A stretch of 64,000 bases of DNA from Xanthostigma xanthostigma. Its lineage: Eukaryota > Arthropoda > Insecta > Raphidioptera > Raphidiidae. A model generated the notes under the pieces. The model ran no database searches. It was not told where the DNA came from and saw only the letters and a list, made by a program, of their open reading frames with translations. Position 1 is the stretch's first letter, and the number at the start of each line of letters is the position of its first letter. The DNA is taken from assembly GCA_963575645.1 (NCBI GenBank), contig OY754464.1:60238948-60302947 (forward strand). The letters run 5' to 3'. Below are positions 3,864-51,244 of this stretch, one piece after another. The translations under genes were made by a program, and so were the position numbers.

Positions 3864-4735
3864 TAATGTCCGACCGAAACTAGTTTTACGGCCGAAACCG
3901 AAACCGAATTTCGGCCTCAATCCCAGTTCATGTTTTCGTGGGAAAAATAAAGTAAACATTATATCATAATCAGCCTAAATTATTTTTTTTTTTATTTTTA
4001 ATTTAATCGCATATTAATCATTCAGCCTATGCTATTTTAACTAAACATTAACAACTTTTCATATCATATTATTACCCCCCTTATTTCAAAAACACAAATA
4101 AATATACTTTTTTTTAATATTATGAAATAAAATAAAAGCTACAAAACAAAATTACTTTTTAATAAATAAAATTAACGACCAATTTTTCAGACAATAGGTA
4201 TATTAACAAAAAAATATATAATTAATACATTAACGTTTCTAATTGAAGAGTTCTAATCAGACGTTAAGATTTGAAAATTGGTTTTTAGTAAAAAGTATTT
4301 ACCTAATAATATGTTTGGGTATAGGTACACACAATAAAAAAAGAAAACACTCTTTCATCTTAAGAACAAAATTATTTCTTCTAAACTTTGGTCATTTTGT
4401 ATGGTACTCTTGTTAACGAACTACAATAAAATTAAAATTAATAAGTACCTACCTACCAAATACAACAACTAAATAAATATTTTTAATGCAAATAATAGGT
4501 ACTTAAATCGAAAGTATCAATATAAAAAGAGTTTTCTCTCAAACTAAAAAAAAAAAAAAAAAAACACGGGCGCGGAGGCATAAAAGCATAAAAACACTTT
4601 ATCGCTCTCATCTGCACCGCATTTCAGCGCGAAACCTCCCGAATGTAGTTTCGGTTTCGGCCGGATGGGCAGCCGAAACCAGTTTTTTGGCCGAAACTAG
4701 GCCGAAGTCGAAACCGAAATTTCGGTCGGATACTA
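3864..4735. mobile_element. Non-autonomous hAT transposon, 872 bp
   Basis: A perfect 8-bp target duplication GATGCTTC flanks the element at 3856-3863 and 4736-4743. The termini are inverted: TAATGTCCGACCGAAA on the left, and TAGTATCCGACCGAAA as the complement of the right end. Internal GGCCGAAACCGAAACCGAA-type blocks repeat near both ends. An 8-bp duplication with TA-starting ends is the mark of hAT elements. The interior is AT-rich without a transposase ORF, so the element depended on a transposase supplied elsewhere. Confidence 0.88.
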
Positions 4736-4743
4736 GATGCTTC

Positions 4744-5400
4744 ACATCAAAAGTAAGAAAAAACTTATTACCCCGCTTAATATGTAATTATTTAAACATT
4801 CTAGTAAGCTCTAATCAAAATGTTAATTTTAGACCTTCAATTGTAATCTGAATAGTATATGTATACAAGGAGCGTTTTATACAATAAACAATGAATATGT
4901 ATAAGTATTACATATTGTATATACCAGAGATGAAAATGTGACAAGTTGTTTCGTCACGATCACTCGCAGTTATTCAATTTTTAAAATTTCATCAAATAAT
5001 TCTTTGATATGATTTTTAAAACAGCTCAACCATTTAAGATTAACATTCAAACATACCTAGGTTACTAGAGTGTCACAATACGACAGGAGCGTTTTATATA
5101 ACTTGGCAAGGGTAGAGATATAGGGGGGGGGGGGGTAAATGGGGTAATTACCCTCCCCAGGACCATAAAAATAAAAAATAAAACAGAAAATATAACGAAT
5201 ACCTAACTAAAAAATAAAATTCGGAAATACTTCTTGAAAAAAAATTAGGTTAGTAATTAATATTTTGCTTGACACCTTCCTTCGTGAGTATTCTTGTGTT
5301 AAAAAACTTATCTACACTCTTGTAACTAGGCACATGTTAGCGAAAAAGTTTTCATATCGTTTTCTCTAAATATCAGAAACCAAATATACAGGTCGGACAA
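4744..5400. other. No gene seen; AT-rich with a poly-G run
   Basis: No coding or RNA feature can be supported. A run of about 13 G lies at 5123-5135, next to a simple A-rich tract. Confidence 0.4.
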
Positions 5401-5421
5401 CTAGCGGCGTATGAATCCCAA

Positions 5422-5655
5422 GTGCTCGAAGCAGGGTCGGTCTGGGACCTAAAAAGTTGCCGGGGAAATTGTCAGCCGCCTCTATGTGACCGTGTAACTA
5501 AGAAGGAAAAGACCGGAACCGGACCGGCCCATGAAGGATGGGCGACCCCCATGGAAAAACTCCCGGTATTCCCTGAGTCCAAAGAAAGCAATTTAACATA
5601 CAATCGTGATTCATCTGACGACCCACTTGGCGAAGTCAAAAGCAAGCAGTATTAA
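5422..5655 (+). CDS. Unrecognised 77-codon ORF, GC-richer than surroundings
   Basis: An open frame from ATG to TAA encodes a polar peptide with many K, E, P and S residues. Base composition here is clearly less AT-rich than on either side, which is why the frame is listed. I recognise no domain. It may be a fragment of a retrotransposon protein or a chance ORF in an old insertion; there is no splice or promoter evidence. Confidence 0.2.
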   Translation: MLEAGSVWDLKSCRGNCQPPLCDRVTKKEKTGTGPAHEGWATPMEKLPVFPESKESNLTYNRDSSDDPLGEVKSKQY

Positions 5656-8374: not shown

Positions 8375-9985
8375 AATTCAGTCTAGGTGTCCCTAGGAAT
8401 TGATGACGTGCCTTCTAAGGTTATTAAATACTGCGCAGATGTCATAAGTGGTCCTCTAACATATATTTTCATTCTGTGCTTTGAAACAGGTATATTTCCC
8501 AACCAAATGAAAACAGCAATAGTGCAACCAATTTATAAGAAGGGAGACCCTCATGATTTAAATAACTATCGTCCTATCTCCTTACTGTGCAACTTCAGTA
8601 AGGTTTTTGAAAGATTAATATACCAGAGATTATTGCACTTTTTTCAACAAAATAAGCTGCTCACCAAAAGTCAATTTGGATTTATAAAAAATAGGTCTAT
8701 TGAAATGTCCCTTTTCAATGGTGTTAATACTATTTTAAATAATTGGAATAATAAATTAATATCTGTAGGTGTCTGTTTAGATCTCACGAAAGCATTTGAC
8801 TCTGTTGACAAAAATCTTTTATGTACAAAACTGGAAAAGTACGGTGTAAGAGGAAAACCACTAGACTTACTCTGTTCCTATCTCTCTAACAGAAAACAGT
8901 TAGTCAAAATCAACTCAAATAGGGGATTAGCAAAATCACAGATGAAAAACATACTTAGAGGGGTTCCCCAGGGCTCTGTCTTGGGACCGTTTCTTTTCTT
9001 GGTCTACATAAATGACATACCTCAAAGCTGCTGTGTTGGAGAAGATATATTTCTTTTTGCAGATGATACTGCTCTTATCTATAAAGCGGAATCTTTGTAT
9101 ATTCTAGAGCAAGATATCGCGACTTCGATTAATGCATTTCAGTGCTGGTTTGATAATAACGGACTTAAATTAAATATACCTAAAACCCAGGCTATCAAAT
9201 TTGGAAATTATGGTGAAAATCCTGACAAGTTGACAATTAATGATCAGAACCAAGTAGATTTTTGCAACTCAATAAAATTTTTAGGAATTACCATAGATAA
9301 AAATTTATCATGGAAGCAACATGTTGAAAATGTTATAAATAAAACTATCTCTTATGTATATTTACTCAGAAGATTAAACTCAAAAATATCCCAAAAGGAA
9401 TTAATAAATATTTATCATGGATTAGTAAATTCTAACCTACAGTATGGTATTATCATATGGGGAAACTCAAGTTACATTGAAGATTTGTTTTTAATACAAA
9501 AAAAATGTATCAGAGCAATAGCCAAAATTAGCAGTAGAACATCATGCAGAAATTTTTTCAAGAAATTAAAAATATTAACAGTCTATGACTGCTACATATT
9601 CAAATGTGCTATATTCTACTTGCAAAATCCAGACTTATTTCAATTACATGAGACAAGGCATGATCACAATACCCGACACAAATCGAAGGATCAATTAAAT
9701 CTATTAAAAACAAATCTTCACGTAGTTTATACTGGCGTGACAAACTCTGTTATAAGAATTTATAACAAAATACCAACCAAAATCAGAAACTTGCCACTGA
9801 ATCAGTTTAAAAAACAATTCAAAAAGATTCTAATAAATCAATGTAATTACAGCCTCAATGAGTATTTCGATATGAATTTTGATTGATATATGTTTTTATT
9901 ATATTTATATTTGTTGACGCTATTTATGCAGTGTATACCTGTCTAAATGAATAAAGAAGCTATGTATGTATGTATGTATAAACGA
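8375..9985 (+). mobile_element. 5'-truncated non-LTR retrotransposon (LINE)
   Basis: The element holds a reverse transcriptase ORF, a short AT-rich 3' region and a terminal (TATG)n-type repeat at about 9962-9980. A simple-repeat tail is how many Jockey- and CR1-related elements end. The 5' part, including the endonuclease and ORF1, is absent, which is usual for incomplete target-primed reverse transcription. I could not define a target-site duplication, so the left edge is approximate. Confidence 0.85.
8387..9886 (+). CDS. Non-LTR retrotransposon reverse transcriptase (partial ORF2)
   Basis: The 499-codon frame copies RNA into DNA during retrotransposition. Visible motifs in order are PIYKKGDP (48-55), NYRPISLL (60-67), LDLTKAFDSVD with catalytic D132, GVPQGSVLGP (192-201), and FADD (224-227) with the paired catalytic aspartates, followed by a long thumb and C-terminal region. 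The first ATG is not the natural start: the frame begins in the middle of the RT-proximal region (SLGIDDVPSKVIKYC), and the N-terminal endonuclease has been lost by 5' truncation. There is no internal stop or frameshift, so the insertion is fairly recent or the family is active elsewhere. The motif spacing suggests the Jockey/CR1 group; the clade is not certain. Confidence 0.93.
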   Translation: MSLGIDDVPSKVIKYCADVISGPLTYIFILCFETGIFPNQMKTAIVQPIYKKGDPHDLNNYRPISLLCNFSKVFERLIYQRLLHFFQQNKLLTKSQFGFIKNRSIEMSLFNGVNTILNNWNNKLISVGVCLDLTKAFDSVDKNLLCTKLEKYGVRGKPLDLLCSYLSNRKQLVKINSNRGLAKSQMKNILRGVPQGSVLGPFLFLVYINDIPQSCCVGEDIFLFADDTALIYKAESLYILEQDIATSINAFQCWFDNNGLKLNIPKTQAIKFGNYGENPDKLTINDQNQVDFCNSIKFLGITIDKNLSWKQHVENVINKTISYVYLLRRLNSKISQKELINIYHGLVNSNLQYGIIIWGNSSYIEDLFLIQKKCIRAIAKISSRTSCRNFFKKLKILTVYDCYIFKCAIFYLQNPDLFQLHETRHDHNTRHKSKDQLNLLKTNLHVVYTGVTNSVIRIYNKIPTKIRNLPLNQFKKQFKKILINQCNYSLNEYFDMNFD

Positions 9986-16458: not shown

Positions 16459-16633
16459 ATTTAGTTTGAATGACAATGCATGGTTAGCTGTGTGACGTCA
16501 CTCTAAATCCAATATGGCAGACTTCTAAAGATGGCGGAAATGCCTTCGGTAATTTTGAAGCAGATATTATCAACCGATTGAGATGAAAATTTGTATACAG
16601 GTTTAGTTTGAATGACAATGCATGGTTAGCTGT

Positions 16634-17530
16634 GTGACGTCACTCTAAATCCAATATGGCGGACTTCTAAAAATGGCGAACTAATTTTATTATGCTTTCC
16701 TACAATATGGGTATCAAATGAAAGGGCTTGCTGAGAATAACTCGAAAAATAAAGTGACGTCACTCTAAATCCAATATGGCGGACTTCTAAAGATGGCGAA
16801 CTAATTTTATTATGCTTTCCTACAATATGGGTATCAAATGAAAGGGCTTGCTGAGAATAACTCGAAAAATAAAGTGACATCACTTTAAATCCAACATGGC
16901 GGACTTCTAAAGATGGCGGACTAATTTTATTATGCTTTCCTACAATATGGGTATCAAATGAAAGGGCTTGCTGAGAATAGCTCGAAAAATAAAGTGACGT
17001 CAATCTAAATTCAATATGGCGGACTTCTAAAGATGGCGGACTAATTTTATTATGCTTTCCTACAATATGGGTATCAAATGAAAGGGCTTGCTGAGAATAA
17101 CTCGAAAAATAAAGTGACGTCAGTCTAAAACCAATATGGCGGACTTCTAAAGATGGCGGACTAATTTTATTATGCTTTCCTACAATATGGGTCTCAAATG
17201 AAAGGGCTTGCTGAGAATAACTCGAAAAATAAAGTGACGTCACTCTAAATCCAATATGGCGGACTTCTAAAGATGGCGGACTAATTTTATTATGCTTTCC
17301 TACAATATGGGTATCAAATGAAAGGGCTTGCTGAGAATAACTCGAAAAATAAAGTGACGTCACTCTAAATCCAATATGGCGGACTTCTAAAGATGGCGGA
17401 CTAATTTATTATGCTTTCCTACAATATGGGTATCAAATGAAAGGGCTTGCTGAGAATAACTCGAAAAATAAAGTGACTTTTGTTTAAATCCAATATGGCG
17501 GACTTCTAAAGATGGCGGACTAAGTTTTTG
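16634..17530. repeat. 120-bp tandem array (seven units plus a partial)
   Basis: Units start at 16634, 16754, 16874, 16994, 17114, 17234 and 17354, with a diverged partial at 17473. Each begins GTGACGTCACTCTAAATCC and includes AATATGGCGGACTTC and GGGTATCAAATGAAAGG. Unit identity is very high. As 120 is a multiple of three and one frame lacks stops, the minus strand carries an artefactual 245-codon ORF with a 40-residue repeat. The array is part of the Helitron. Confidence 0.95.
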
Positions 17531-32785: not shown

Positions 32786-35700
32786 TCAGTTATCCTCGGT
32801 ATGACGTGGTAGAAAACATAGTTTCGTTACCGATCGTGTTAGAGTAGCTCCTGCTGAACGAATTGTGACGACACGTATTTCATTGTCGGATCCAGGATGT
32901 AGAGCGGTTACTCTACAAAGTGCCCATTTTGAAGGTGGAAGGCGTTCGTCAATAAGAAGAGCCAAGTCGTCCAGTTTGATCTCTTTTTTGGTTACCCGCC
33001 ATTTGTGACGAGCTTGAAGGGTCGTTAGATATTCCGACGACCAGCGTACCCAAAAATGTTCGTACATTTGACGTAATAGTTGCCATCTATTGAGTCTACT
33101 GGTTTTGATGTCCAATAAACTAGGTTCAGGAATTGTGGTGAGAGCTGACCCGATGAGAAAGTGACCTGGAGTCAACACTGTCAAATCTGTAGGGTCATCT
33201 GAGAGAGCTTGTAACGGTCTGGAGTTCAAACACGCTTCCACTTCGGCCAGGAATGTAGCGAGTTCTTCGTAAGTTAGTGTATGTTCTCCAATGACACGTC
33301 GTAAATGATGTTTCGTGGAACGGACTCCGGCTTCCCACAATCCGCCAAAGTGTGGCGAGGCTGGAGGAATAAGCTTCCAATCTGTACCATCGTTGGACAG
33401 TAGCTCAGCAATTTCTCTTCGTTGAGGTGAAGAAATCTGAAACAGTCGCTTTAATTCATTATCAGCACCAACAAATGTGGTACCGTTATCACTCCAAAGT
33501 GTGGAACAGACACCACGTCGTGAGACGAAGCGTTTATAAGCAGCTATAAATGCTGATGTGGTATAGTCGCTGACGACTTCTAAGTGAATGGCACGTGTCG
33601 CCATGCAAACGAATACGGCAATATAACCTTTGTAGGCGCGGAAACCTCGACCTTTCGTTGTTCGTAGCCGAATTGGACCAGCATAGTCAACTCCAGAGTG
33701 CAGAAAAGGTCGTGATGGTTGAACTCTCTGTGCTGGCAAATTCGCCATTAGTGGAGCAGTAGATGTAGCCTGGTACGGAAGACAATTCCGACATTGTCTA
33801 ATAATACTTCTCACTCGCTGTCTTCCTCCAAGAATCCAATAAATTCTTCTAAGATAGCTAAGAGTAAGCTGCGTACCACCATGTAAAGTTTTTTGATGTG
33901 CTTGATGAATTACTAAAGTTGTGAATGGTGATTGTTTCGGTAAAATGATGGGATGCTTCTCATCGTAGTTCAGTAAAGAATGCTGAAGACGTCCGCCGAC
34001 TCGCAGTAATCCACTTTCATCAAGAAATGGTTTCAGCTTACTCAAGTGGCTTGTGTAAGTCAGCGATTCTTTTGATTGAAGAGCCTTGTAGTCTGCAGCG
34101 AATGATTCCTTTTGAACATACATAATCCAAAAATGTCGAGCTTCTCGTAGCTCTGTTGGTGTCAGGTGTCCTTTGCTTCGAAGTGCCACAGGATGTCTTA
34201 AATTAAAAATGAAACGTTTGCAATATCCTGTAACCCTGATGAGCTTGTTTAGCGAAGAATAACGCAGTAAAAGGTCCAAATTCTCTTTTGGAAACAATAG
34301 TGTAGCATGACTTTTGATCACTCGATCTTCCAAATCCACGTTAGATGGCAGGTTTGGTAGCGTAGTTGGCCAGCATGATGACGGTTTTGTAAGCCACTGT
34401 GGACCGTTCCACCACAGACTGTGATTTTCAAGCTCGACTGGATAAAGTCCACGAGACGCACAGTCAGCAGGATTTTCTGATGAAGATACGTGATGCCAAG
34501 TAGCCGTTGATTGTAGCGTTTGGATTTCACTCACTCTATTAGCGATGAAAGTCTTCCAGCGAGACGCGTGTCCTTTGATCCATGCAAGGACAACGGTAGA
34601 ATCTGTCCACAGGTAAGTTGATTGTACGGAGTTGTCTAGAGTTTGTTGAACAGATTGTGTCAAACGAGCGAGTAGTGTAGCAGCACACAGTTCCAGGCGT
34701 GGCAATGAAACTCTTTTGACAGGTGCCACTTTTGTCTTCGCAGAGAGTAAAGTAATTTTCACGTTATCATTGTCCGTTTGTACTCGAAGATAAACCACGG
34801 CAGCATAAGCTCGTTCAGATGCGTCAGCGAATCCGTGAAGTTCATATGTGGTTTGATTCGTTGCCTGAATTCCCGTCCATCGTCTGAGTGAAATTCGTTC
34901 AATTGCATGCAGTTGTGATCGATACAACTTCCACTGTTTCTCAACATCTGTAGGAAGATTCGTATCCCAGTCAACTCCAAGAAGCCACAATGATTGAAGT
35001 AAGATTTTTGCAGTGATTGTAACAGGACTTAGCCAGCCAAGTGGGTCGAATAATCTTGCGATATCCGAAAGAATCCCACGTTTCGTACTTTTAAATGATT
35101 CGTCGAAAAGTTGTACTCTGAATTTAAAAGTGTCTAGTTGTGGTTGCCAAAACAATCCTAACACAGGAACACCGCCAGCTTCAGGTTTCAATTCCATTTC
35201 AACAAGAGGTTCCTTTTCGTTATGCGGAATCTCTTCAAGCAGGGTTGAAGAATTGGAAACCCATTTACGTAAGTGAAATCCTCCAGCTTTCAGTATTCCA
35301 GTCAGCTGACGTTGATATTCCACAGCCTCCGGAATGGAATTAGCGCCTGTAAGCACATCATCAATGTACATATCACGTAAGATTATTTTTGCCCCGAGTG
35401 GATATTGATTTTGTTCATCATGTGCTAGCTGACGTAGAACTCTCAATGCAAGAAATGGAGCGCTTGCGGTCCCATATGTCACCGTGAGAAGACGATATTG
35501 TTGAACCGGTTGAGTAGAAGCGGCTCGCCATAAGATCCGTTGGTAGTCGCAATCTTCAGGATGTACCCATATCTGCCGGTACATTTTGGCTATGTCTGCT
35601 CCGAAAACAATTGGATGCATTCTCCATCTTAGAATGATAGCTGATAAGTCAGGTTGTAATTTTGGACCGATTAGCAGCGCATCATTTAGTGATAAACCAT

Positions 35701-37123
35701 TTAATGATGGTTGCGAAGCATTGAAAACGACGCGTAACTTCGTTGTAGAACTGGCTGTCTTTGTAACCGAATGGTGCGGTAAAATAAACCCAGATATATT
35801 TTCTGTAGTCGTGACCCTGGAAATAGGAGCCATATGACCTAGTGAGCTGTACTCAGTCATGAAATCAGTGTATGAGTTAGCTAGGTCAGGATTTTTCATG
35901 AAACGTCGTTCCATGTGTAGAAGTAGTTGTAGTGCTGACTGATATGAATCTTTTAGGACGAAGTGCGTTGGATCTGTCTTAAATGGTAATCGAACCACAT
36001 AACGACCTTGATCATCTCGTGTATGAGTAGTTGTAAAGTGAGTTTCACATTTAATTTCATCATCGGTCAGTTGAGCGGAAACCGTAGCTACATCTTCCAC
36101 TTGCCAGAAACGTTGTAGTTGAATGGATAACTCTGTATTAGTTACACAGTGCATACTACAGGTCGTTGACGATGATCTGTTTGTCGGAACTACTCCAGAG
36201 AGTATCCATCCTAAGGTTGTGCGTTGAGCAACAGGACTATTACGTAACCCTGTGCGTACACCATCGAGTAAAATCTGAGAGTAGATGTCAGCTCCCAGAA
36301 CTAGATCGATACGTGCGGGTTTATTGTAGTCTGGATCTGCCAATTGCAAGTTTTCTAGATGTGTCCAAGTCTTGTTCAAACATTGAATAGTTGGCAAATG
36401 CGTTGTTAGCTTCGGCATTACGAGAGCTCTGACCTCATACGACTTGTCTGGAGCTATTTGAGAGTGCATTTGTACGAAGGCAACTGTTCTAACAGTTCCA
36501 GTTGTGGCATTTCCAAGTCCATATACAGTGATGTTGGTAGGTTTTCTTTTTAAACGAAGTTGTTGTGCGACAGATTCCGTAATAAATGACGATTCCGACC
36601 CTTGATCCAAGAGAGCGCGTACTGTAAGAATTCGACCATCCGCAGAGCGAAGATTAACTTTAGCAGTAGCTAAAAGAACAGCTGTGTTTTGTGAATTAGA
36701 TTCTATTCTTGAGGTCATAGCCGACGTTGAGGCTTGCTCAGTTGAGCCTTCAGTCTTGCTTTGAGTGAACGTTGAAGCAATAGAGCTACCATGGAGCATT
36801 GAATGATGGTTAGCTCCACAATTCTGGCATCGTTTCACAGAGGCACAGTTTCTTCTTAAGTGCTTATTGCTAAGGCAATTATAGCAGAGCTGTTTTTGGA
36901 AGATCAACTCTCGTCGTTGGTCAGGAGTCTTCTTTCGGAAGTTTGAACAAAACATAATGAAATGCTTGCCAGAGCAGTCTTGGCATTTTTGTTCATCGGG
37001 TGTAGTGGTAGCAGCGTGCGTTCTGCAGCGTGATGATTGCGTTTCTTTAGGAATAGCTGTCTTCCCTCGAGTAGTAGTAGATGCGTCTAGTGCTTCGAGT
37101 TCTCGAATACGCCCTTCAATGAA
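32786..37123 (-). CDS. BEL/Pao Pol polyprotein (end of Gag, protease, RT, RNase H, integrase)
   Basis: From the stop at 37124 the same frame stays open for 56 codons to an ATG at 36955 and then for 1,389 residues. Zinc knuckles come first: a C-x2-C-x3-H-x4-C before and across that ATG, then CYNCLSNKHLRRNC and CQNC. Numbering from the ATG, the aspartic protease has DQGSESSF (D117). The RT has FGADIAKMYRQI (D454) and YIDDV (530-534). RNase H shows D711, E755, D785 and D831. The integrase has an HHCC finger (H1020, H1025, C1055, C1058) and D1090, D1156, E1208. A C-terminal BEL-specific domain ends FLPRHTEDN. All catalytic residues are present. The ATG at 36955 lies inside the first knuckle and is not the natural start. 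Confidence 0.96.
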   Translation of the reverse strand, partial: FIEGRIRELEALDASTTTRGKTAIPKETQSSRCRTHAATTTPDEQKCQDCSGKHFIMFCSNFRKKTPDQRRELIFQKQLCYNCLSNKHLRRNCASVKRCQNCGANHHSMLHGSSIASTFTQSKTEGSTEQASTSAMTSRIESNSQNTAVLLATAKVNLRSADGRILTVRALLDQGSESSFITESVAQQLRLKRKPTNITVYGLGNATTGTVRTVAFVQMHSQIAPDKSYEVRALVMPKLTTHLPTIQCLNKTWTHLENLQLADPDYNKPARIDLVLGADIYSQILLDGVRTGLRNSPVAQRTTLGWILSGVVPTNRSSSTTCSMHCVTNTELSIQLQRFWQVEDVATVSAQLTDDEIKCETHFTTTHTRDDQGRYVVRLPFKTDPTHFVLKDSYQSALQLLLHMERRFMKNPDLANSYTDFMTEYSSLGHMAPISRVTTTENISGFILPHHSVTKTASSTTKLRVVFNASQPSLNGLSLNDALLIGPKLQPDLSAIILRWRMHPIVFGADIAKMYRQIWVHPEDCDYQRILWRAASTQPVQQYRLLTVTYGTASAPFLALRVLRQLAHDEQNQYPLGAKIILRDMYIDDVLTGANSIPEAVEYQRQLTGILKAGGFHLRKWVSNSSTLLEEIPHNEKEPLVEMELKPEAGGVPVLGLFWQPQLDTFKFRVQLFDESFKSTKRGILSDIARLFDPLGWLSPVTITAKILLQSLWLLGVDWDTNLPTDVEKQWKLYRSQLHAIERISLRRWTGIQATNQTTYELHGFADASERAYAAVVYLRVQTDNDNVKITLLSAKTKVAPVKRVSLPRLELCAATLLARLTQSVQQTLDNSVQSTYLWTDSTVVLAWIKGHASRWKTFIANRVSEIQTLQSTATWHHVSSSENPADCASRGLYPVELENHSLWWNGPQWLTKPSSCWPTTLPNLPSNVDLEDRVIKSHATLLFPKENLDLLLRYSSLNKLIRVTGYCKRFIFNLRHPVALRSKGHLTPTELREARHFWIMYVQKESFAADYKALQSKESLTYTSHLSKLKPFLDESGLLRVGGRLQHSLLNYDEKHPIILPKQSPFTTLVIHQAHQKTLHGGTQLTLSYLRRIYWILGGRQRVRSIIRQCRNCLPYQATSTAPLMANLPAQRVQPSRPFLHSGVDYAGPIRLRTTKGRGFRAYKGYIAVFVCMATRAIHLEVVSDYTTSAFIAAYKRFVSRRGVCSTLWSDNGTTFVGADNELKRLFQISSPQRREIAELLSNDGTDWKLIPPASPHFGGLWEAGVRSTKHHLRRVIGEHTLTYEELATFLAEVEACLNSRPLQALSDDPTDLTVLTPGHFLIGSALTTIPEPSLLDIKTSRLNRWQLLRQMYEHFWVRWSSEYLTTLQARHKWRVTKKEIKLDDLALLIDERLPPSKWALCRVTALHPGSDNEIRVVTIRSAGATLTRSVTKLCFLPRHTEDN

Positions 37124-37984
37124 TTATTTGAGCTGTGTGTACTTGACTGGATCTGCCGTTGAGCTGATTGACTTTTCCCAATCACGACGAGAAGCAATGT
37201 CAAGTCGATCCACTGTTATATGCACAAGCCAGTCATCCCAGTAGTCAACCGGCCTTTTGAGATTCTCTAAGGCTCGAATCACTTCAGTTGTTCCGTCATA
37301 TAATCGCTTCAGTTCAGATGCTGATTCACTTTGTACAGCAGGAAGCTTTGTTAAGTTTTGTAGATGAGTATGAATAATTAAACGCTTGTTTTCATACCGG
37401 GCTACCAATTGATCCCAGGCAATTTTGTAGTTGGCGCTAGTTACTTCAAGATTTTTCAGTAATTGTTCGGCTTCACCAGTGAGACTTAACTTGAGGTAAT
37501 GAAGTCGTTGTACATCTGATAATGACGTATTATTATGTACGAGAGAAGTAAAAAGATCGTTGAAGCTTGCCCAGTCAGTATAATTGCCCGAAAACCGAGG
37601 CACATTAATGCGAGGTAACATGTTATGATGACCCCCAGTAGCAGCAATCGATCCGTCTTCTGTGTTTGTTGAATTTGCATTTGGCGTTGTATTTTCAAAT
37701 TCATATAGCATGTCGAGTAATTCTCCCTTGACTGTAGCGTAATCATCAGCAGCCTTATCAAAATGGTTTTCTTTGTAATATGAAGTGTCTTGAAATGTAG
37801 GATTGTTAAGACCGATTAAAGAGTAGTGATTCTCTTGTAATTTATTCCAGTAAGTTTCAAGTTGCTCAAGACGAGCGCGTATAGCACCACGCGTGATATT
37901 GTCTCGACCAAGTTTCTTCAGGTTAATTATAGTGCGTGAAATTAACCCAGATGTACACTCTTGTTTGTTTAAAAGATCTTGCAT
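37124..37984 (-). CDS. BEL/Pao Gag, N-terminal part ending at an in-frame TAA
   Basis: The 286-codon frame begins about 157 bp downstream of the 5' LTR and is in frame with Pol. An alpha-helical N-terminus is followed by PRFSGNYTDW (129-138), the usual start of the BEL/Pao gag (DUF1759-type) domain that builds the capsid-like particle. The frame ends at TAA (37124-37126). Sequence after the stop continues the typical gag C-terminus and zinc knuckles, so the stop looks like a single nonsense change. Programmed readthrough is less likely, because the stop lies before the nucleocapsid region and not at a gag/pro boundary. Confidence 0.92.
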   Translation of the reverse strand: MQDLLNKQECTSGLISRTIINLKKLGRDNITRGAIRARLEQLETYWNKLQENHYSLIGLNNPTFQDTSYYKENHFDKAADDYATVKGELLDMLYEFENTTPNANSTNTEDGSIAATGGHHNMLPRINVPRFSGNYTDWASFNDLFTSLVHNNTSLSDVQRLHYLKLSLTGEAEQLLKNLEVTSANYKIAWDQLVARYENKRLIIHTHLQNLTKLPAVQSESASELKRLYDGTTEVIRALENLKRPVDYWDDWLVHITVDRLDIASRRDWEKSISSTADPVKYTQLK

Positions 37985-38120
37985 GACGATCAGTAGTAAT
38001 AAACTTGCGAAAAATAGTAATTTTATACTTGTAAAGTATGTAGAAAAGCTTGATTATTTGCAATCGTTGTATTAGAAAGCGTAGTTATTATTCTTATTTT
38101 TGCGTTGATTTTTTAAATAA

Positions 38121-46746: not shown

Positions 46747-47136
46747 TAGTATATAATAAAATATACTTAATGAGCAAATGACCTTATAGTTCACTCAAAG
46801 AAGCAAAAATAGGGGAAATAATTCGTGTAAAAGCGATTTTTGGCATAGTTGTAGGGGATGGTGTCTGAAGCAACATACTCAAAGTACTGATGGATGGGGG
46901 TGGAGCTAAGGGGTGGGGGGTGGCGTTAAGGTCCCCTTTTAAAGTTTTTCTTACATATCTCGTAAACGGTGGCTCATAACAAAAAAATTTTTTTACTCAA
47001 GCAATCTACATAAAATTCTCTACAAAAAAGGTCCTGTACACTTTTTCGCTGGGATCAATATTTAATGAGACGTGAAGGAAAGAAGATGGTCAATAATAAA
47101 ATAAAGATACAGTTTTTTGAGTAGGTATGGCATGTA

Positions 47137-47448
47137 TTAAAAAAAATTCCTATTATCTTCTAAATCTAACATAATATCATCATCAACATCATCGTCGACG
47201 GTGTTTTTGATTGGGGCTCCGTTAGTGCATGAGCCGGAGCATACCCCGCCAACACTGGAGCGGGCATTTCCTGCTTTCCGGCAGCCGCATCGCACCCCAC
47301 ACCCAGTCCTACATCGGCAAAATATGCTGATGAGTATGGAGTCAGGTGCCACAGGATCGTTTGTTGTCACCGACTTTAGGATGCCATCGTCTCCTCTGGC
47401 CCAGCCCCATTGAGTAGGTGGTAGGGGCTTGCTGAGCCATTGTTGTAT
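47137..47448 (-). pseudogene. Nuclease gene, last exon: cysteine-rich (CXC-like) tail
   Basis: This exon follows a clean acceptor (TTTTACAG before ATACAACAATGG) and is phase 0 with the exon at 47536. It encodes WLSKPLPPTQWGW, then CRCRTGCGVRCGCRKAG and a further Cys cluster (CSGSC), then an acidic end with a VDDDVDDD stretch before the stop at 47137. The cysteine spacing resembles CXC-type zinc-binding motifs and is what I recall at the C-terminus of related repeat-encoded arthropod and fish proteins. The tail may bind DNA or zinc. It belongs to the same gene as the nuclease region, whose reading frame is now interrupted. Confidence 0.75.
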
Positions 47449-47535
47449 CTGTAAAAGATGTAATACGATCAACGAAAGTATTTAGCTCAAATATATATTT
47501 AATATATATTTGACAACTTCTGTGGTTAATGATAC
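47449..47535 (-). other. 87-bp intron with GT-AG ends
   Basis: On the minus strand the donor is CTACAG|GTATCA and the acceptor is CTTTTACAG|ATACAA. Splicing joins HSLRVYLQ to IQQWLSKP in frame at a codon boundary. Confidence 0.8.
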
Positions 47536-47676
47536 CTGTAGGTACACTCTCAACGAGTGCTGCTTCGAAGCTTCTCTGGTAGGAGGAAGAGTGGCCTGAT
47601 CTGATTTCGGATTCATTGATGCTCTCAAAAAAGCTGAGTATCGTAATTTATTAGTGTATTTGCCATAAGGCACTTA
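47536..47676 (-). pseudogene. Nuclease gene, penultimate coding segment
   Basis: The frame reads PYGKYTNKLRYSAFLRAS, then LPPTREASKQHSLRVYLQ, and ends at the splice donor. LPPT...A..HSLRVY is a conserved block of this protein family between nuclease and cysteine-rich tail. Its upstream edge at about 47677 is the boundary of the family C insertion, so it is cut off from the nuclease region. Confidence 0.75.
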
Positions 47677-47783
47677 CACTATTGGCGTCGGTCGGATGGC
47701 GGGACCTAGGGGTCGGACCAAAATTTCTCGACGTTTCATAACTTTCTAAGAAGTTTGGCACCATTTTTGGAAATGTTTATATA

Positions 47784-47827
<44 letters not shown>

Positions 47828-48365
47828 TTATATATTTATATATATATGTGTGACCACGATAACTCTCGACAGACTTAATCGATTTAAATAAAATTTGGTC
47901 CACATGTTGGAATCCATCATCGCAAGAAGCCTATTTAAAATGGGCCCGATCGGGCCATTTTAAGGGGGGTATTTAGGGGTTCAAAAATGTTTTTGGGCCG
48001 AAAAATACCAAAAAAATTTTCAGAATCGTTTCAAATTTGAAATTTAACCCTTTAGTAATTATTGAAACGTGCTGCTAAAATTTTAATAAAATCGGTCCAA
48101 CAGAACCGGACTTACAAATTTTATGAAAACGCAAGTTTATTGATATGGATTTACATACTGAAGGGTGCATATAATTTGGTACAGATGTTAAATTGGTATA
48201 TAGTATTGAAATTAAGTAAAAAAATGTTGTTTTAAGAGGTGTATTAAGGGGTAATTTTTTTTATTTTGTCCAAAAACAAAGTTAAGTTCATACAATAGAG
48301 CCACACTGCTTATAAAAGCAAATACACTATATTGTCGACAGGGTTTCGCACTGCGACCCGAGTTT
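47677..48365 (-). repeat. Repeat family C, copy 2, inserted in the nuclease gene
   Basis: It begins TTACACTATTGGCGTCGGTCGG like the copy at 30931, and its 48000-48345 part matches 31955-32340. It holds a (TA)n microsatellite at 47777-47848. It separates the nuclease region from the downstream coding segment and supplies about 50 unrelated residues to the end of the longer open frame. Confidence 0.75.
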
Positions 48366-49108
48366 TTTAGATTTTGTTCCTGGTTAGACGCTTTGTAAAT
48401 TGCCAGAAACAGTTTCTCGCCGGCCTGTTCAATACTCTCAGGTGATGTTGAAGGCTCATTAAAAATGTCTGAGATTTTTTGGGTCAGGTCTGGTTTATCC
48501 GTGAACAGCTTAGCAATTCCCACTTTGCTCTTTCCATGGATTGCAGTGGTGGTGTCGCATCCGGAGAAGCTGTGGAGAAGGAGAATTGTCTTGGCAAGTG
48601 GAAACTGTTGAAGTTGTCGCACTGGAAACAATTTGGTTTCCACCTTTCCACGCCCTGGTTTCATAAAGAACACGTTAATATTTGGTGGAGCCAATCCCAT
48701 GAGGAGGACTATCAAGTCGACATTTTCCCCAACTATTACAACAGTTGGATGAATGGCAGCCTTATCCAACCCGCATCTGACAATAGTACCATCAGCATCT
48801 CCTGTTGCAACAGTTGTTTCAATCCCTGCTGCTGTCATTTTCTCGGTGAGGAACTGAATCAGCCTCGTTTTATTTTTTTCGTTGGCGAGGAAATGCTCCT
48901 GTTTAACAGTGATGATCGTATTTTCGTTACAGTTAATATCAACCGACGTTTTAGTCAGACCTCGTCGCTTCTGCTCTGCTCGTTTAGTGCTGTTGACATC
49001 ACTGTAACCATCAAAAACCACCATACAGTTTGGACCGTAATGTTTCTGGACGTAGGTAATGTATTGATGGCAAATCGTAGAAACGTTGGAGGACGGGTTC
49101 CATTTCAT
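48212..49108 (-). pseudogene. FEN/XPG-like nuclease region of a transposon-encoded protein
   Basis: The open frame has 298 residues; about 1-246 (to 48370) are authentic and the rest is read-through into the family C repeat. Acidic motifs occur in the order of FEN1/XPG (PIN-like) nucleases: VFDGY (D33), a basic TKRAEQKRR segment, TGDADG (D104, D106), VGENVDLIVLL (E128, D131), and FSGCDTT followed by GKSKVG (D185), which resembles the H3TH region of FEN1. Such enzymes cut branched DNA using metal ions. The ATG at 49108 may not be the true start, since related proteins extend further upstream and a hAT element sits at 49156. With both ends broken, function is unlikely. Confidence 0.72.
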
Positions 49109-49155
49109 ACTCCACGTGTGCGTCGTGATTGGTTGGCGGTGACCTTGCCGCCAGT

Positions 49156-49807
49156 GAGAGATGATACAAAATACTAGGAACAGTTATTTTGGGACGGGAA
49201 CAGATTGGAACAGTTGTCAGTATAATAAAATACCTGTTCCGGGCTGTTCCAATGCTTCGACTGTTCTTCTGCATAAAATAAACATTCTCCGTTCCCGTTG
49301 TAAATTATTATTGTACCTACTTTGCAAACTGCAACAGTTATGCTCTTCACCTACGCCTAGCGTACATTGCACGTAAAGTCGATTTTAGTATCACACCATC
49401 ACATTAACATGCGTCGCAAAGTTTCAGACAAAACTGGACGGCTTATTCATTTTATATTACATACGCGAATAATATTGAACTGTGGTGAAATAATATTATT
49501 TGATTTTGTCATAGTATATGCATTCTGCAGAACAACTGTTACTTACATTCTGTAAAAGTATATTTGTAATAATTAGGTACCTTAAATTATTAAACTTGAA
49601 TAATAGAATTAATTCACGAAAAAATACAAATCATACACATTTCATAATTTGAAATTTTTATAAGTTGCATGTTACAAGCTATTCCGAGAATGTCAAGGTT
49701 CCAACGTTGGAACTGTTAAAAAGTAACAGGTTTTTGGAACTGTTCCGTAAGCGGAACAGGAACGGAACGGAACTGTTATTAAAAAATAACAGTTTGTACC
49801 ACCTCTA
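49156..49807. mobile_element. Non-autonomous hAT transposon, 652 bp
   Basis: A perfect 8-bp duplication CCGCCAGT flanks it at 49148-49155 and 49808-49815. The ends GAGAGATGATACAAA and TAGAGGTGGTACAAA (complement of the right end) are inverted. GGAACAGTTATT-type motifs repeat near both ends. It inserted just upstream of the nuclease frame. Confidence 0.88.
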
Positions 49808-50186
49808 CCGCCAGTCCCTTGCGCCCGACGACGCTACAGAAACGTGCCGTGTGCGCCAGCAGTTTGAACCAATACGTAAAAATGCGAGAATTGAGCATAT
49901 AATTAACTTTTCTTCTTTGATATCTCGTTAAATATTGATCCCAGCGAAAAAGTGTACAGGACCTTTTTTGTAGAGAATTTTATGTAGATTGCTTGAGTAA
50001 AAAAATTTTTTTGTTATGAGCCACCGTTTACGAGATATGTAAGAAAAACTTTAAAAGGGGACCTTAACGCCACCCCCCACCCCTTAGCTCCACCCCCATC
50101 CATCAGTACTTTGAGTATGTTGCTTCAGACACCATCCCCTACAACTATGCCAAAAATCGCTTTTACACGAATTATTTCCCCTATTT

Positions 50187-51244
50187 GGCAGTATTTGGTC
50201 TTCGTTGATTGAACTATTAAATTGAACATTATCGATTAGATTATGTTTTGTCGATCAAAAACGTGAATTTTAATTTAGCGGGGCAGCCCTGCTAGTAAAT
50301 AAACCTTTAGATACCCGCTGTTCCGATTTAAAATTTCAAACACATGATTGTCGGTCAGGAATTGAGAAATAGTGTTACACGATTCTCGTTGCGACGACAA
50401 AGGATTTCTTTAGACAACAATCGGCTCGTCATTAACAATGACACACAGATTGTTGTGGAACAACAATCGGCTTGTTGTTCTAACACTGATACATAGATTG
50501 TTGCCAAATTCCAGTCAACATGGAATGCAAGAAAAGAAAGAACGATCCAGCGCATATATAAACCACGGCGATAGGTTAGGAATTGAAAAATAGTTTATCT
50601 GCAGTATTACTCTGCTAATGCATATACAATTCTGTGCTACAAAACCAATAAGCTTCTAGTAAAGGGCGATAAAATATGGATGCCCGTTCGTTCACACTGT
50701 GACTCATTTATTGCCATTTTTATAGTTTTTTGTCTCATTTTTTACCAAAATTGCATAATAATTCAATATATGAACGTACGTTTAAAAAAAAGCTAAATCT
50801 AAGATATTTTTGATTTTTAACCAGTCGCGTTTTTTGTCGTACACATAAGATGCAATTTTAATAAAATATCTGCAAGTATTAAATTTTAAATCTCGAACAA
50901 AAATTAAGTTTAATTACGACTACGAAAACAATCAACAGTAATAAATTTATGTTTGGTCAAAGTTAAGCCTAAAATATTCCAGATACAGTTTCACTGAATC
51001 GACCCGAGTGAATATTTACCTCTACGCTTTGAGTGTGGGAACACCCTAATTCGTGCACCTAATTTTATTGAAAATCTATTCAGTTGAGATTTTCGTACGA
51101 AAAATGTTTTTATTTATATGAGAGCTCTACTTTAAATCGAGCGAAACCGAATATAAAGTAGCACATCTTTGAATAGAAAAATCCTGTACATGTGTACCAA
51201 GTTTTATTGAAATCGGATAAGAGGTGTAAGACTCACAGCAAAAG
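50187..51244. other. No gene; Helitron 3' end at 50295
   Basis: TTTAGCGGGGCAGCCCTGCTAG followed by T at 50296 has a GGGC/GCCC hairpin before CTAG, a Helitron-like 3' end on the plus strand; its 5' end was not found. The rest is AT-rich without supported genes. Confidence 0.45.

Follow-up and report, generated by a model that had tools for sequence, protein, structure and literature searches.

The 64,000-nt window analysed here (Xanthostigma xanthostigma, OY754464.1, 60,238,948-60,302,947; positions are window coordinates unless another locus is named) holds a transposable element that, by the history proposed below, is very probably non-autonomous and derived by internal deletion from an Academ-type (AcademX-like) cut-and-paste transposon. 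It adds another case to a type of element already known and does not define a new type. A preliminary description of this DNA had proposed that its nuclease-like protein either takes part in transposition or is cargo on a non-autonomous derivative. The non-autonomous part of that proposal holds, except that the nuclease does not travel as cargo. What the element retains is the C-terminal domain of a large transposon protein of 1449 aa, which answers the question of cargo or transposase. The window copy contains the following features:

46787..50216, gene on minus strand: whole element, 3430 bp, termini TAG...CTA
46784..46786: left target-site duplication (TSD) TTA, from extraction of copies on shared ends
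50217..50219: right TSD TTA, from the same extraction
46807..47080, plus strand: left arm of the inner long terminal inverted repeat (TIR), 274 nt, 264 nt identical
49913..50186, minus strand: right arm of the inner long TIR, 274 nt
49829..50216, minus strand: 5' end common to positions 1-387 of the full-length element L061, 94.6% identity
49156..49807: nested hAT-like non-autonomous insert, with 8-bp TSD ACTGGCGG at 49148-49155 and 49808-49815
47536..49111, minus strand: exon 1 remnant of a FEN/EXO1-like nuclease, beginning ATG AAA TGG at the deletion joint
47653..48368 (ends within about 5 nt either way): later dispersed-repeat insertion breaking the gene
47449..47535, minus strand: GT-AG intron of 87 bp, donor and acceptor found across family copies
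47137..47448, minus strand: exon 2, cysteine-rich tail, from frame reading

The element was previously outlined as a 3.4-kb TIR transposon at 46807-50186, enclosed by equal 264-bp repeats. Both the transposon and the repeats are real. The two arms are 98% identical over 274 nt, and their outer 264 nt are 100% identical (genome row C1:60288870-60289133). As boundaries they required correction, with the true ends lying 20-30 bp outward, at 46787 and 50216, next to the TTA duplications. In the copies compared, conservation extends outward from the inner repeats as far as TAG(T/C)(T/C)CACTC at one end and GATTGAACTA at the opposite end, small variants aside, and the flanking sequence, read by eye, differs from copy to copy. 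Extraction on these shared ends yielded 29 rows. Since the window element and L001 are the same copy, these represent 28 distinct copies, comprising 27 short copies and L061. Three of the 30 protein-anchored loci (L003, L021, and L027) were without both ends and were left out of the TSD count. A 3-bp TSD flanked 25 of the 27 distinct short copies, supplying the duplications that the preliminary description had wanted read from several copies; L030 had 4 bp (TATA) and L015 none.

Two minus-strand frames account for the gene. The first (48212-49183) encodes VFDGY, GDAD, VGENVDL, and SGCDTT, and the second (47137-47481) is cysteine-rich, as originally reported. The gene had also been called spliced, which is correct for the intron at 47449-47535, with a donor GT in 43 of 44 copies and an acceptor AG in all 44. 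The gap that had been bridged is mostly not intron but a dispersed repeat some 715 bp long. This repeat lies in the gene of the window copy only (1 of 44) and occurs at no fewer than 39 other places in the genome with 90-99% identity. The exon 1 remnant thus interrupted lacks motif I and reads GENVD in place of GEDVD. The hAT-like insert is present in the 5' part of all five short copies compared (L002, L011, L014, L024, and the window) and at a minimum of 40 genome places. The 87-bp intron is missing, with a read-through frame, in L061, L062, L063, L065, L067, L071, and L072. A similar intron donor occurs at the same place in L066 (about position 2373). The absence from L061 is precise: either the full-length copy lost the intron, or the intron was gained before the window family and L066 split.

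The nuclease is a remote relative of EXO1 and FEN1. Its profile aligned to human EXO1 and FEN1 (hhalign) with a probability of 91.8% and an E-value of 7.3e-7, and the alignment lined up the VFDG, acidic pair, EDxDLL, and SGCD motifs. As a control, the full-length protein's middle part scored 0.1% against the same EXO1 and FEN1 profile. The transposon nuclease shares with EXO1 and FEN1 the order and spacing of seven catalytic acids (40-71-2-23-2-54 in L061; 48-72-2-19-2-52 in EXO1) as well as the VFDG, EDxDLL, and SGCD motifs. The profile comparison and the spacing together bear out the earlier label of a FEN/XPG-like nuclease. Unlike EXO1 and FEN1, it is fused to a transposon protein, and the relation is distant, at 22% identity in the profile alignment.

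An alignment of nine nuclease regions (A2) located the conserved acids at D30 (VxDG/S), D70 (VFDGY), D141 and D143 (DAD), D166 and D168 (EDVD), and D222 (GCDTT). D30 was conserved in the seven rows that reach the motif. The window has none, and the L062 stretch starts past it, its full frame holding motif I. All seven acids occurred in order in L061, L063, L064, and L065, while D166 was Asn in the window and L075. No significant family emerged when the window frames, full-length proteins, and A2 members were scanned against Pfam; single members gave weak matches to NYN_YacP (0.017) and PIN_4 (0.27). Sequence and profile searches of the PDB gave no convincing match. Across the species' own genome, the Pfam XPG_I model matched five places, none of them among the window-nuclease matches listed, and judged by these scans the nuclease family is too remote for that model. 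No relatives of the nuclease were found in the viral contigs scanned. A single-sequence AlphaFold model of the window nuclease (pLDDT 39.6) was too poor for use.

The origin of the short element emerged when its own genome (623 Mb) was searched with the nuclease frame of the window copy. This search returned at least 126 matches; 124 of 5053 candidates were scored. One locus, L061 (C5:19374707), is a 5634-bp element with family-type ends and a single 1449-aa open frame (L061:1513-5862). Here, the same ends enclose a much longer frame. At its N terminus the encoded protein is, by eye, rich in Cys and His; a long conserved middle part follows, and the C-terminal portion consists of a FEN/XPG-family nuclease and then a Cys-rich tail. 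BLAST comparison of L061 with five short copies revealed shared blocks at L061 positions 1-387, 4119-4981, and 4972-5630 (about 94, 97, and 93%; 93-98% identity overall). The shared ends and blocks identify the short form as derived by deletion. It corresponds to an L061-type element minus about 3.7 kb, plus the hAT-like insert, which makes up most of the roughly 0.7 kb that short copies hold between the first two blocks. The stretch of L061 from the 5' end to the nuclease is deleted and the short element is without a DDE region, in agreement with the earlier statement that no DDE transposase is recognisable.

L061 is the only full-length copy found in this family (family A), and the middle 2.4 kb of L061 was found once in the genome. 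One terminus of L061 lacks the TAG that is otherwise usual, and a 67-bp direct repeat, in place of a 3-bp TSD, borders the element. These features and the lack of the intron show that the short family did not arise directly from L061. Mean exon-1 divergence between L061 and the short family was 2.9%. Within the short family, the mean pairwise value was 1.2% among 43 copies, indicating that the burst is young. TIRs enclosing unrelated content had been named as evidence that would count against the original reading. In family A, all 30 TIR-anchored loci (the best 30 of 40 scored, among 134 candidates) hold the nuclease.

Three further full-length relatives were found. Their frames span 1450 aa with one stop (L063), 1463 aa (L062), and 1521 aa (L065) at 39-42% identity, and are surrounded by long TIRs of 817 bp, 449 bp, and at least 1060 bp, respectively. 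Open full-length frames thus exist in one genome for L061, L062, and L065. In three full-length proteins, the acids of DNAD (428-431), FDQ (602), and IEQ (836; L061 numbering) are invariant. We infer that the middle part is a candidate DDD/E transposase, with D428 or D431, D602, and E836 of L061 as candidate catalytic acids. The middle part had no match in Pfam or the PDB, and no relatives in the viral contigs or prokaryote genomes scanned.

These properties are consistent with an AcademX-like Academ family, assigned by its nuclease, 3-bp TSD, TIRs, and length, a likeness drawn from published descriptions. The AcademX lineage has been associated with a nuclease and a 3-4 bp TSD (PMC10045372). 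Mean Academ length in bivalves is given as 5565 bp (PMC10294476), and Academ is counted among the DDD/E superfamilies (PMC9587614). The family has a nuclease domain within the element protein, 3- or 4-bp TSDs, and TIRs, and L061 at 5634 bp is near the 5.6 kb that is typical of Academ without strictly defining it. L061 by itself shows neither a 3- nor a 4-bp TSD. The AcademX resemblance therefore covers a nuclease in the protein, a 3-4 bp TSD, TIRs, and a full length of about 5.6 kb, as compared by description (PMC10045372). The window copy differs in having been cut down by deletion to 3.4 kb, with a nuclease remnant that looks dead. Alternatively, the full-length elements could represent a non-Academ superfamily that independently carries an XPG/FEN nuclease. 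The middle part without a Pfam family match and an Academ likeness by description would suit such an origin. We consider it improbable, as the features printed for nuclease-bearing Academ in the papers above are matched in every respect compared: nuclease, 3-bp TSD, TIRs, and length.

Our data suggest the following history for the Academ-type derivative. A deletion joined the 5' 388 bp, via a short filler, to codon 1067, just beyond the first catalytic Asp of the nuclease. The hAT-like insert entered the deleted element, and the 2.7-kb product then spread to at least 44 places, among which 27 copies were checked for TSDs. Mobilisation is likely to have occurred in trans, with the protein of a full-length relative binding the shared ends, and the short copies probably borrow this long transposon protein. 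In full-length elements, the nuclease may process transposition intermediates. Since the nuclease adjoins the 3' TIR, deletions that spare the ends can keep it by position, and the short copy would not need it.

To assess the state of the short-family nuclease, 60 loci were reduced to 44 distinct places and aligned for frame and substitution counts. Only 6 of the 44 were intact, possessing an ATG and the two splice sites and being free of stops, frameshifts, and large inserts, with L003 scored as broken because its fetched stretch ends early. The GEDVD position equivalent to D166, an Asp in L061, was Asn in 44 of 44 short copies. The deletion joint falls downstream of motif I, which bears the first catalytic Asp and is missing from the copies read at that point, such that the window family lacks the seven-acid set of an active nuclease. 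A 2-nt deletion in the tail shifts the frame in 20 of the 44 copies and is absent from L061, indicating that copying continued after loss of that frame.

Substitution patterns were also examined in exon 1. The 84 private substitutions comprised 57 missense, 20 silent, and 7 stop changes (56.8, 21.7, and 5.5 expected), while the 33 shared substitutions comprised 20, 11, and 2 (21.7, 9.9, and 1.4 expected). With stops included, dN/dS-like ratios were 1.11 for private and 0.86 for shared substitutions, and the two patterns did not differ (p 0.35). Substitutions found in four or more copies were too few to be informative (17; 10 missense and 7 silent; ratio 0.64-0.68). L061 differed from the family majority by 12 missense and 8 silent changes (ratio 0.67, p 0.47). 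Selection on the short-family frame was therefore not supported by these tests and the pattern looks neutral, although weak selection may be compatible with only 33 shared substitutions. Altogether, the short-family nuclease looks dead from its sequence, with two catalytic acids gone, few intact frames, and neutral-looking substitutions. The window copy is additionally broken by the later 715-bp repeat.

These results bear on two further explanations. The FEN-like protein, as the sole recognisable gene of the short element, could itself be the transposase, making the compact element autonomous and a new class. This is extremely improbable, given that family A is without two catalytic positions, 38 of 44 frames are broken, and the same ends also occur with a long multidomain protein. 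The second explanation is that the nuclease-only protein was retained for a function, as a trans helper or as a dominant-negative repressor of the full-length protein. KP is such a dominant-negative repressor for P elements. The ATG situated directly at the deletion joint and the six intact family-A frames are in keeping with retention. The neutral pattern, the 38 broken frames, and the frameshift common to 20 of 44 copies point the other way, and position beside the 3' TIR can account for the nuclease having been kept. We rate retained function as quite unlikely. Participation in transposition, as first suggested for the nuclease-like protein, thus fails for the short family, where two catalytic acids are gone and drift proceeds without detectable constraint; the nuclease of the full-length protein may still participate.

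Retention for function gains some ground from other loci, as nuclease-only derivatives occur in at least three families: A, B (L067-L069, L073, and L074, with the degenerate L070), and C (L071 and L072). All seven catalytic acids are kept in L067, L069, L071, and L072. Family B has ends TAGCCTGGG / TAGTCTAAG and, by eye, 3-bp duplications AAA, CTT, ATT, and ACA in L067-L070. Its inner TIRs measure 655-671 bp, with L070 at about 745 bp. Among the members read, the whole gene is open only in L067 (434 aa). L068 and L069 contain stops, and pairwise dN/dS-like ratios of 1.7-2.0 were not significant. The two family-C members are 99.3% identical and encode nuclease-only frames of 470-472 aa; all six of their differences are non-synonymous. 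Purifying selection left no sign in B or C among the few copies compared, and these observations weigh against retention in both families.

Family-C TIRs also bracket nuclease-free content. Their arms occur at 40 or more genome places, among 1501 candidates. At L076, the one locus examined, arms about 99% identical to those of L072 surround content that does not match the L061 protein and matches the family-C nuclease over no more than 23 residues. Here, the finding that would count against the original reading was obtained, and it likewise speaks against retained function. Close family-C TIR pairs without a listed nuclease match, by coordinates alone, lie at C2:50551775-50554559, C2:50973365-50976151, and C8:19170346-19172803. 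It is doubtful, at similarly low probability, that nuclease-only Academ derivatives recur in A, B, and C because a free nuclease helps or regulates transposition in trans. If this were true, the B and C members with all acids would represent functional cases, and the window family one that has decayed. Clustering of deletion joints at the nuclease border was considered and dropped, as family-C TIRs adjoin copies retaining part of the middle region (C10:8881319-8883542 and C3:9511812-9514771, search coordinates only). L075 (C2:28870400-28873700) is a possible fourth nuclease-only case. Its nuclease frame of 437 aa adjoins a 1.15-kb palindrome and contains VIDGG, yet shares GENVD with the window family.

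The P-element KP and Ac/Ds systems include non-autonomous internal-deletion derivatives that keep their ends, have mostly lost the transposase, and are present in more copies than the full-length form. The window family likewise keeps its ends and a mostly deleted gene, and outnumbers its full-length form. Unlike KP and Ac/Ds, its remnant is the C-terminal nuclease, with a second transposon nested inside. KolobokP, as described in PMC9587614, is also a eukaryotic DNA transposon pairing a DDD/E transposase with a nuclease, differing in its His-Me finger nuclease and separate superfamily. No description of nuclease-only Academ derivatives was found in the literature searched. The three open full-length proteins and the naturally split families provide material on the role of the XPG-like nuclease in Academ transposition.

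Inverted pairs of family-A nuclease fragments, overlapping or less than 200 bp apart, were observed at C10:10726020-10728212, C3:11439049-11442446, and C2:64862030-64862662. The C10 and C3 pairs also carry both hAT-like arms and are palindromic derivatives. We would guess that palindrome-forming events explain the range of TIR lengths between families, from 264 to more than 1000 bp. Elsewhere in the window, frames of 1445 and 309 aa (32786-38053, minus) resemble by eye a BEL/Pao-type LTR retroelement polyprotein, and a 499-aa frame (8387-9886, plus) resembles by eye a non-LTR retrotransposon reverse transcriptase. A 259-aa frame (16626-17405, minus) consists of tandem repeats of about 40 residues.
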